The translations under genes were made by a program, and so were the position numbers. Positions 14,733-42,516 of a DNA stretch of 43,491 bases are shown piece after piece. Origin of the DNA: Arcicella sp. GTDB lineage: Bacteria; Bacteroidota; Bacteroidia; Cytophagales; Spirosomataceae. The notes under the pieces are model-generated. The model had not been told where the DNA came from. It saw only the letters and a program-made list of their open reading frames with translations, and did not search any database. The first letter of the stretch is position 1. Every line of letters starts with the position of its first letter. The DNA lies in the NCBI GenBank assembly GCA_025354645.1, contig JANXML010000131.1, forward strand, positions 1 to 43,491. Reading direction: 5' to 3'.

Positions 14733-14944
14733 ACTTCCCGAAAGTTCCTTCTACTTTCGGGAAGTTCTGACTTGAAGTAATGTTATTTTTGAAGAATTTT
14801 CGAGGAGCTTAACTTCCCGAAAGTAAAAATAACTTTCGGGAAGTTGACGAGAAATTTACTTCCCGAAAGTTCTTTCTACTTTCGGGAAGTTCTAATGTTT
14901 GCAGTAAATTAACTTCCCGAAAGTAAAAAAAACTTTCGGGAAGT
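14733..14944. repeat. Array of four REP palindromes in alternating orientation
   Basis: Four hairpins share 13-nt arms (ACTTCCCGAAAGT / ACTTTCGGGAAGT) and 7-nt loops: A 14733-14765, B 14812-14844, C 14858-14890, D 14912-14944. All arms are exact. Loops are TCCTTCT and TCTTTCT in A and C, AAAAATA and AAAAAAA in B and D; A and C read as purine-rich on the other strand, so the order is minus, plus, minus, plus. B and D carry TTAA at their 5' foot. This is the layout of paired REP elements (BIME-like) flanking their transposase gene. The single copies at 18389, 25159 and 42432 belong to the same family. Confidence 0.95.
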
Positions 14945-14978
14945 AACGAATATGTATATTTTAACATTTCACTCCACT

Positions 14979-15599
14979 ATGAAAAATAACGAAATACCAT
15001 TACTCCCAGAAAATTATTACCACATTTATAATCACGCAAATGGAAGTGATAACCTATTCTTAACCTCTGAGAATTATCGGTATTTTCTACAACGTTACCA
15101 TACTTTTATTAGCCCAATTGCTGACACTTTTGCCTATTGTTTGATGCCAAATCATATCCATTTTCTTATTAGGATTAAATCTGAGCCTGATTTACAAAAA
15201 ACGTATCAATGCAAAACACAATCAAGAGAAATACTTTTGGAAGAGGATATTCCAAAGTATTTAAGCCGAGTATTTGCGAGTCTATTCAGTTCATATTCTC
15301 AGGCTTTCAACATTCAACAAGGTAGAAAAGGCAGTCTTTTTATGCCTAATTTTAAACGTAAACTTGTTGAAACCGAAGCGTATTTCACTCAATTAGTCTA
15401 TTACATCCATGTAAATCCCGTTCATCATGGTTTTGTTAAAGACTTATCAGCCTGGGATTATTCATCATATCATGCTTTTTTATCACGAAAACATTCCAAT
15501 TTGCAAAGAGACGAAGTCTTGAATTGGTTTGGTAATGTGGATAGTTTCAAAGCATTTCATGAGGGAATATCATTGGGAGGGAAATTAGATTTTGATTAA
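14979..15599 (+). CDS. REP-associated tyrosine transposase (RAYT, Y1 HUH family)
   Basis: From the ATG at 14979 the protein has 206 residues; an ATG at 14952 would add nine and cannot be excluded, but the family usually starts close to the LPENYYHIYN strand. The HUH metal site is NHIHFLIRI (HIH, residues 59-61 from this start). The nucleophilic Tyr is in QLVYYIHVNP (about residues 141-142), with the usual IHxNP following. RAYTs cut and join single-stranded REP DNA and are thought to spread REP elements. Four REP palindromes lie directly upstream, ending 7 nt before the first ATG. There is a single gene copy, no inverted terminal repeats were found, and the frame is intact, so it looks domesticated and functional. 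Confidence 0.9.
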   Translation: MKNNEIPLLPENYYHIYNHANGSDNLFLTSENYRYFLQRYHTFISPIADTFAYCLMPNHIHFLIRIKSEPDLQKTYQCKTQSREILLEEDIPKYLSRVFASLFSSYSQAFNIQQGRKGSLFMPNFKRKLVETEAYFTQLVYYIHVNPVHHGFVKDLSAWDYSSYHAFLSRKHSNLQRDEVLNWFGNVDSFKAFHEGISLGGKLDFD

Positions 15600-16117: not shown

Positions 16118-16234
16118 GTAATTTTTTGGAACGAAAATTATCATAGAATCGTCTTATCTGAATAATAATTACAATCAATTAGTAAGTAATAGAATATCAA
16201 TTTTTGAAAATTAGGATTAATTTGGAGTCCAACT

Positions 16235-16313
16235 GAAATTCCGCTGTTTGAGCGTAGCGAGTTTCGGAATTTCTTGATTTTTTTGTTTCTTTTTGTATCA
16301 AGACAAAAAGAAA
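16235..16313. repeat. Double-hairpin intergenic repeat
   Basis: The first hairpin has arms GAAATTCCG (16235-16243) and CGGAATTTC (16265-16273) around GCTGTTTGAGCGTAGCGAG. The second has arms TTTCTTTTTGT (16286-16296) and ACAAAAAGAAA (16303-16313). From memory, similar units recur in other Bacteroidota intergenic regions. No gene can be supported in this gap (16118-16396). Confidence 0.65.
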
Positions 16314-16396
16314 TTAAAATTAGAGTTAATCTGATATGATTAAAAAAGTTTGCTCACAAAATCAATTTATCATTCACTACAAAAACCAACAAACCA

Positions 16397-18388: not shown

Positions 18389-18421
18389 ATTTCCCGAAAG
18401 TTAGTTTTACTTTCGGGAAGT
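18389..18421. repeat. Single REP palindrome between convergent genes
   Basis: Arms at 18389-18401 (one mismatch: ATTTCCCGAAAGT) and 18409-18421 (ACTTTCGGGAAGT), 7-nt loop. It carries TTAA at its 3' foot, so it is the minus orientation of the family. It lies between the convergent NIPSNAP and M20 genes and may act as a bidirectional terminator. Confidence 0.9.
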
Positions 18422-25135: not shown

Positions 25136-25158
25136 TAAAATAACCTATTGGAATTGGA

Positions 25159-25189
25159 ACTTCCCGAAAGTTTAATATTTTCGGGAAGT
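25159..25189. repeat. Single REP palindrome after the DM13 gene
   Basis: Arms ACTTCCCGAAAGT (25159-25171) and ATTTTCGGGAAGT (25177-25189, one mismatch), 5-nt loop. The flanks (GGA before, TGAGC after) resemble element B of the 14.8 kb array. It starts 24 nt after the stop codon at 25135 and may work as the terminator. Confidence 0.9.
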
Positions 25190-25285
25190 TGAGCCAAAGT
25201 ACTAAATTTTATATCCAATAAGTTATGTCATAGTCTATAACGTAATCACAAAATATAATAGTCTTAAATTTAAAAACCCATTTTC

Positions 25286-42385: not shown

Positions 42386-42431
42386 ATTAGGGAGCTTATA
42401 AATTTAAAGATACCCACTTCGACTTGGAGGA

Positions 42432-42462
42432 ACTTCCCGAAAGTTTTAAACTTTCGGGAAGT
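42432..42462. repeat. Single REP palindrome between kinase and regulator genes
   Basis: Exact arms ACTTCCCGAAAGT (42432-42444) and ACTTTCGGGAAGT (42450-42462) with a 5-nt loop; TTAA follows at its 3' foot, so it is the minus orientation. It splits the gap between the histidine kinase and its regulator and may reduce read-through within the operon. Confidence 0.92.
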
Positions 42463-42516
42463 TAAGCGAAAGTATGGGTATTTTATTAATTGAATGCTCC
42501 CTTAACACAAACAAAA

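Follow-up and report, generated by a model that had tools for sequence, protein, structure and literature searches.

A REP–RAYT system in Arcicella whose palindromes probably travel in part within short inverted-repeat elements

Here we describe a REP–RAYT system, supported by sequence comparison, in a 43,491-nt stretch of Arcicella DNA (Cytophagales, Bacteroidota; contig JANXML010000131.1, assembly GCA_025354645.1), hereafter the window. In it, a gene for a Y1 HUH protein with RAYT motifs and a predicted RAYT-like fold lies beside an array of palindromes. The same hairpin is multi-copy and intergenic in the genome, and its presence or absence across the genus is linked to that of the gene. 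Palindrome arms co-vary with their RAYTs between genera, and many of the Arcicella copies sit between terminal inverted repeats (TIRs) bordered by target duplications. On this sequence evidence we consider it probable that the locus is REPtron-like and that many of its cognate palindromes were dispersed in Arcicella within DDE-type MITEs.

The four hairpins of the array (A–D; Table 1) are 33 nt long and consist of perfect 13-bp arms, identical in all four (ACTTCCCGAAAGT/ACTTTCGGGAAGT), around 7-nt loops. The array spans 14733-14944, with a DPP IV gene (PF00930, PF00326) on one side and the open Y1 HUH reading frame on the other. This layout was proposed in the original prediction and is confirmed by the arms, the Pfam domains and the protein motifs, as is the inversion of the A and C loops relative to those of B and D, pyrimidine and purine loops alternating as it stated. 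It had further read the array as two inverted pairs. This is only partly right. Sequence like the B–C doublet (13-nt spacer) is found at many sites across the genus, and the C–D doublet recurs as well; elsewhere, moreover, loop orientation within doublets is not in every case inverted (for example, G001:C6:129231/129277). Arm matches with up to two mismatches number 15 in the window against 1.18 expected, a count reached in none of 100 shuffles. Three further hairpins lie away from the array. The one in the approximate delta-type element has one flank in a family to which G004 and G007 copies also belong; the approximate gamma-type element has an outer inverted repeat, AGGGAGC...GCTCCCT, and one flank in the gamma family. 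No known RNA family in Rfam matched at gathering threshold between 14600 and 16500. A separate repeat of about 80 nt lies at 16201-16317, between the RidA and aldo/keto reductase genes; it is multi-copy in the genus genomes (G000, G001, G002, G004, G006 and G007 among the matches listed), is present also without the RAYT and is unrelated to the hairpins.

Table 1 Features of the window
Feature	Position	Strand	Remarks
Hairpin A	14733..14765	-	Loop TCCTTCT; purine loop on - strand
Hairpin B	14812..14844	+	Loop AAAAATA
Hairpin C	14858..14890	-	Loop TCTTTCT
Hairpin D	14912..14944	+	Loop AAAAAAA
RAYT/TnpA-REP-like Y1 HUH protein	14979..15599	+	ORF open from 14952; start 14979 inferred from homologues
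Dispersed hairpin	18389..18421	.	7-nt loop, one stem mismatch; no common flank family found
Approximate delta-type element	25138..25240	.	Surrounds hairpin 25159-25189; ends by eye
Hairpin	25159-25189		5-nt loop, one stem mismatch
Approximate gamma-type element	42388..42503	.	Surrounds hairpin 42432-42462; ends by eye
Hairpin	42432-42462		5-nt loop

The HUH motif of the protein is H68-I-H70 and its catalytic tyrosine is probably Y151 (numbering of the 215-aa ORF); all three residues are invariant across 20 aligned sequences. With this motif and one catalytic tyrosine the protein is of the Y1 HUH kind, its fold being predicted: an AlphaFold model (pLDDT 90.3) has the E. coli RAYT structure 4er8 as its best Foldseek match (E 1.2e-8), and 4er8 is also the best PDB match by sequence. 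The match to NF047646 (REP-associated tyrosine transposase; E 4.6e-16) scores 59 bits, below the 80-bit equivalog cut-off of that one model, and we therefore call the protein RAYT-like and not an equivalog. A Pfam search gave no match, Y1_Tnp included, and NF047646 was thus used for the genome search. The original prediction had hairpin D end 7 nt before the gene. This is correct for the first ATG (14952); close homologues start at the second Met, so that the true gap is probably 34 nt. The stop in the G001 match appears to precede the second Met, since 206 aa can be read without interruption from that Met onwards. Among RAYT paralogues of the genus, a palindrome lies inside the gene with the frame unbroken (L041:1849-1881, L044:1824-1858 and G001:C21:12232-12264), an arrangement reported for subclass 2.4 in PMC6006769. 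At G000:C153:1192-4294, three consecutive Y1/RAYT-like genes occupy 3.1 kb, and one of them contains an internal stop.

The palindromes beside the gene are also dispersed in the genome and are specific to this gene. Allowing up to three mismatches, the genome of the window (G000) holds 66 hairpins and the reversed-pattern control none; short, extragenic and present in many copies, the hairpin is a REP in the broad sense. We compared eight Arcicella genomes (G000–G007, that of the window included). Five have a RAYT orthologue with 78-88% identity to that of the window, and these contain 66 (G000), 40 (G001), 83 (G003), 16 (G004) and 1 (G007) hairpins, the last two rising to 30 and 7 when loops of 2-8 nt are permitted. 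The three congeners that have no such orthologue (G002, G005 and G006) have no hairpin. The original prediction had named recurrence of the hairpin and its dependence on this RAYT as its test, and it passed both. A Fisher test of RAYT against hairpin presence over the eight genomes gives p = 1/56, to be read with a one-gene tree that puts the RAYT-negative genomes in two places (G005 with G006, and G002; one deep node weakly supported at 0.58), so that the genus offers only about two independent contrasts. The best relatives in the named collection include Arcicella aurantiaca DSM 22214, with an orthologue (L207) that can be read as an open 206-aa frame from the second Met, and an Arcicella MAG. 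In each of the five RAYT-positive genomes one close orthologue adjoins the same DPP IV gene; in G005, an unrelated reading frame comes after that gene, and then the apparent end of a RidA gene (by eye). A second RAYT of G000 (C177) has its own, different palindrome, with six copies in G000, two in G001 and none in the other six genomes. At order level, among 118 Cytophagales genomes, the exact arm type occurs in 5 of 44 with a RAYT and in 3 of 74 without one; outside Arcicella it reaches at most 4 copies per genome and tracks RAYT presence weakly. This rarity and weak linkage count against a simple genome-wide rule.

We found no general tetranucleotide at the feet of 173 distinct genus hairpins (346 feet). 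The original prediction had proposed that a TTAA at one foot plays the part of the GTAG guide. TTAA does stand at the feet that it named, but as a guide we rejected it: counted over the three outside bases and the first stem base, it occurs at 38 of the 346 feet, in 37 of the 173 hairpins, and AGAA and TCAA are commoner. GTAG was rejected likewise. Counted on the outside bases alone, GT[AG]G lies directly at the foot in 1 of the 173 hairpins and within 0-2 nt of it in 21, largely of one flank type ending ...CTTGTAGA. Of 42 RAYT loci, 1 has this motif close to the nearest hairpin. The hairpins are thus not REPs in the canonical sense, which has GT[AG]G at the 5' foot. In RAYT groups 2 and 3, the biochemistry described in PMC8266576 indicates a role for GTAG and, in some of them, for the loop; that GTAG is not the rule in the present hairpins is therefore a real difference.

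Doublets account for 31 of 85 hairpin groups, with spacers of 13 or 16 nt common, and the prediction is supported in that the RAYT has cognate palindromes which are dispersed, intergenic and arranged as doublets. Clustering of flanks was done on the sampled hairpin groups, 139 of them distinct; 92 fall into common flank families (72 alpha/beta, 13 gamma, 7 delta) and 47 into none. For seven of the 72 alpha/beta groups, the sole link is a cluster consisting of the spacer plus a second, often altered, hairpin. The alpha/beta elements end in terminal inverted repeats, TACASTGTTWANTAAGTY (also given as TACASTGTTTAATAAGTT). In a sample of 46 distinct elements of 94-194 nt (two composites above 200 nt were dropped), 27 have the same 5 nt outside each TIR; 5000 re-pairings gave 2.05 such elements on average and never more than 8. 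These matching 5-mers are a target duplication, with the consensus YTWAR read from alignment columns. A 7-nt duplication (10 of 46 exact) was dropped in favour of 5 nt because its outermost T and A hardly vary and belong to the TIR. At least one intact hairpin is present in 37 of the 46 elements, a share biased upward because most elements were sampled through their hairpins, and two are present in 15. TIR counts for the most part parallel those of the hairpins: they are 44 in G000, 84 in G001, 32 in G003 and 21 in G004, and 1, 1, 3 and 0 in G002, G005, G006 and G007. The control gives 0-5 per genome. G007, with its RAYT and seven hairpins, has no alpha/beta TIRs.

Almost all sampled elements of G000 and G001 (45 of 46) lie outside ORFs of at least 120 aa, whose coverage of the loci is 81%. 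When three whole elements were folded as single-stranded DNA, each formed one long stem (z -13.0 to -14.2). G005 and G006 both lack the 123-nt element of L075, with the flanks conserved on either side; the site does not provide a clean empty site, as the intergenic DNA of these two genomes is too diverged to fix the junction. With TIRs, a target duplication, short length and, as inferred from that length, no coding content, the alpha/beta elements qualify as MITEs. Three TIR elements have the same ends around other long palindromes (L129:1501, L123:1501 and L075:4572, the last with arms of about 33 bp by eye). Variant hairpins have about 20 nt, TTTACCCGCAATGGATATTG or close to it, in place of part of the loop and arm (for example, in L061, L074, L101, L146, L165 and L033, loci of G000, G001, G003 and G004). 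An IS110-family element (PF01548, PF02371) lies inside the hairpin stem of an alpha element (L077:1579-2990; G000:C296). One of its junctions recurs in L010 and L145, and another, similar junction occurs in L182 and L187; the hairpin therefore looks like a repeated landing site.

The 5-bp duplications of the alpha/beta elements indicate that a large part of the Arcicella copies travelled in DDE-type elements. Classical REPIN dispersal, in which the RAYT alone moves doublets as single-stranded DNA and the outer sequences are those of an unusually long REPIN, is a rather unlikely alternative. It would account for the linked presence and absence of RAYT and hairpin in the genus and for the G007 hairpins that occur without alpha/beta TIRs. 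The alpha/beta, gamma and delta flank families share one hairpin core, which suggests that the hairpin and not the ends is the common moving part, and the groups in no common flank family fit as well. However, exact duplications of 5 bp in more than half of the sampled alpha/beta elements are unexpected of Y1 enzymes, and the three elements with other palindromes between the same ends speak against it too. Y1 enzymes (IS200/IS605 pathway) are not known to leave target duplications. Under dispersal within DDE-type elements, the 47 of 139 groups that have no common flank suggest that some copies may have moved another way.

The association of RAYT and palindrome extends beyond the genus. Of the 45 best RAYT relatives outside it, which reach 39-56% identity over their best segment, 34 are encoded no more than 300 nt from a strong hairpin, 19 of them with hairpins on both sides, and 11 have none within that distance. 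Hairpin density near these RAYTs (70 in 25,765 nt) is about 30-fold that found more than 1 kb away (13 in 141,645 nt). These palindromes mostly have the form 15 bp + 3-4 nt + 15 bp; once the Arcicella orthologues are set aside, 33 of the 37 RAYT loci that have a hairpin show a loop of 3-4 nt. The 7-nt loop, put forward in the original prediction as a feature of the class, is therefore not supported as one, and many G004 and G007 copies have shorter loops as well. Beside two RAYTs of other Bacteroidota (L244 and L218), regular arrays of dyad palindromes flank the gene on both sides, with units of about 77 and 63 nt. Hairpins on each side of the gene are also what the ends of IS200/IS605 elements look like, and a RAYT that moves with its flanking hairpins as one IS200-like insertion sequence could explain the 19 two-sided loci. 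We regard this as extremely improbable for the window, where the hairpins are all upstream of the RAYT: each of the five Arcicella genomes has one close orthologue, always located downstream of the same DPP IV gene, and not the several near-identical gene copies with terminal hairpins that mark IS200/IS605. The conserved position thus disfavours it.

The arms tend to be dyads themselves, as in AACTT-N5-AAGTT (AACTT-CCCGA-AAGTT is one case) and AAACC-TATAA-GGTTT. In 42 of 53 RAYT loci (the 11 that have no hairpin within 260 nt were left out), on average 3.76 of the 5 outer positions pair; when the arms are shuffled, the mean is 1.37 (maximum 1.90). The unshuffled mean is 4.0 over the 37 loci that remain when the five Arcicella orthologues are removed. 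The window hairpin scores 0 of 5 in this strict 15-nt frame because its arms are 13 nt (ACTT-CCCGA-AAGT). By a looser measure it scores 0.8; 35 of the 42 arms reach at least 0.8 and the mean is 0.91, against 0.57 when shuffled (maximum 0.65). Three REPs beside E. coli rayT, found by the same kind of scan, score 0.5, 0.75 and 0.5. Arm similarity also follows RAYT identity. Mantel tests, from which L211 and L239 (loop 8) were left out, give r 0.42 for 40 loci and 0.38 for 36, with none of 5000 permutations as high in either case, and r 0.31 for 26 loci thinned to below 65% identity, with 1 of 5000 as high. The exact arm of the window type, AACTTCCCGAAAGTT, is found also in Spirosoma telluris (L241) and a Saprospiraceae MAG (L212), despite RAYTs that are only about 50% identical.

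Linkage in the genus and co-variation of the arms together lead us to conclude that the palindrome belongs to the RAYT. We consider it very unlikely that the hairpins are ordinary internal structure of a MITE (or terminators or mRNA stabilizers) and the RAYT a bystander, even though TIRs and target duplications, the intergenic placement of the elements and their very stable single-strand folding would suit such a case: in other genera, too, related RAYTs have palindromes built in the same way on their flanks, and arm sequence co-varies with RAYT sequence; a separate palindrome accompanies the second RAYT; and the RAYT-less genomes have no hairpins and TIR counts no higher than the control.

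In the reading that we prefer, the RAYT-kind Y1 HUH protein and the adjacent array of cognate palindromes would constitute a REPtron-like unit. We infer that the protein would bind the folded single strand of the palindrome, the arms supplying family-specific recognition letters, and would nick and rejoin DNA next to it through Tyr151, which may make and reshape doublets near the RAYT gene. A large part of the doublets in Arcicella would then be carried round the genome in short TIR elements that have a target duplication of 5 bp and that a putative DDE transposase presumably moves in trans. The palindromes may have been built into several TIR elements, through placement by the RAYT or otherwise, and then carried. 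A stronger version, a two-enzyme mobile element in which RAYT-recognized dyad-arm palindromes lie in TIR elements with several types of end, moved by DDE transposases with help from the RAYT, seems to us doubtful. If it held, the RAYT would help the TIR elements, for example through a nick in the folded strand at the fork that raises their copy number; it would also specify which TIR elements succeed, and dyad-armed palindromes would be a Bacteroidota-wide REP class with its guide in the arms and not at the foot.

Dyad arms, co-divergence of arm and RAYT and carriage in MITEs are apparently new. Neither dyad arms nor TIR-borne REP hairpins in Bacteroidota turned up in our search of the literature, which covered a minority of subscription papers and not the PMC6006769 supplement; some of the palindromes may already be in Table S1 of that paper. 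The original prediction overlooked the dyad arms, the TIR elements with their target duplications and the 'atypical' Bacteroidetes REP subclass treated there. For Bacteroidota, the results lay out a second architecture with dyad arms, no general GTAG foot and RAYT–arm co-divergence across genera, and for one genus, Arcicella, they point to REP hairpins that ride in DDE-type MITEs, whereas the RAYT–REP biochemistry cited above for contrast concerns Gammaproteobacteria and GTAG-footed REPs. Two questions become testable: how RAYT specificity is achieved where there is no GTAG, and whether REPs are dispersed by RAYTs or by other transposases.

Among described systems, the window RAYT is closest to TnpA-Y1 subclass 2.6 (Quentin et al. 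2018, PMC6006769), which equals group 5 of Bertels in the table of that paper. The subclass is mostly from Bacteroidetes, and its atypical palindromes, with copies elsewhere in the genome, were found by hand. Its listed motifs are NH[LIV]H (HuH), YIH[QN]NP (Y motif) and WQ (W motif). Common to both are NH[LIV]H, a YIHxNP-type motif, the Bacteroidetes host, genome copies elsewhere and flanking palindromes that have no general GT[AG]G foot. NHIH of the window protein fits the subclass; YIHVNP has V where Q or N is listed, and F130-M131 stands in place of WQ (F130 is nearly invariant in the 20-sequence alignment, L244 having W there). Because of the Phe for the listed Trp and of YIHVNP for YIH[QN]NP, we describe the protein as closest to subclass 2.6 and do not file it as a member. 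The structures of that subclass are also called atypical and weaker, whereas those of the window type are strong hairpins with dyad arms.

Short palindromic repeats in Bacteroidetes are shared with the CGTC-tagged REPs, described by Di Nocera et al. 2013 (PMC3733652) as having no dedicated transposase. By contrast, a RAYT is adjacent here, and CGTC lies 0-2 nt from the foot in 1 of 173 hairpins. IS-derived MITEs such as that of Cardinium (PMC9769881) are likewise short, non-coding, TIR-bounded and present in many copies, but the Arcicella elements carry RAYT-type palindromes. Landing of IS110 elements in REPs is known from ISPpu9/10 and IS621 (PMC1525189); the element in the L077 hairpin stem resembles these cases, in a different class of REP. 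With the REPINs of Pseudomonas (PMC3116915), the Arcicella system shares palindrome doublets as the recurrent unit, here often with a spacer of 13 or 16 nt, and differs in the outer TIRs and 5-bp duplications. That rayt genes and cognate REPs go together is the general rule of Nunvar et al. 2010 (PMC2817692). The likeness to the E. coli REPtron (rayT/TnpA-REP, REPs and BIMEs) lies in the fold, with 4er8 as best match, the HUH and Tyr motifs, palindromes beside the gene, alternating doublets and one cognate palindrome per RAYT. The Arcicella system, in contrast, has perfect stems with no bulge, dyad arms, no general GTAG foot, and many copies inside TIR elements with target duplications.
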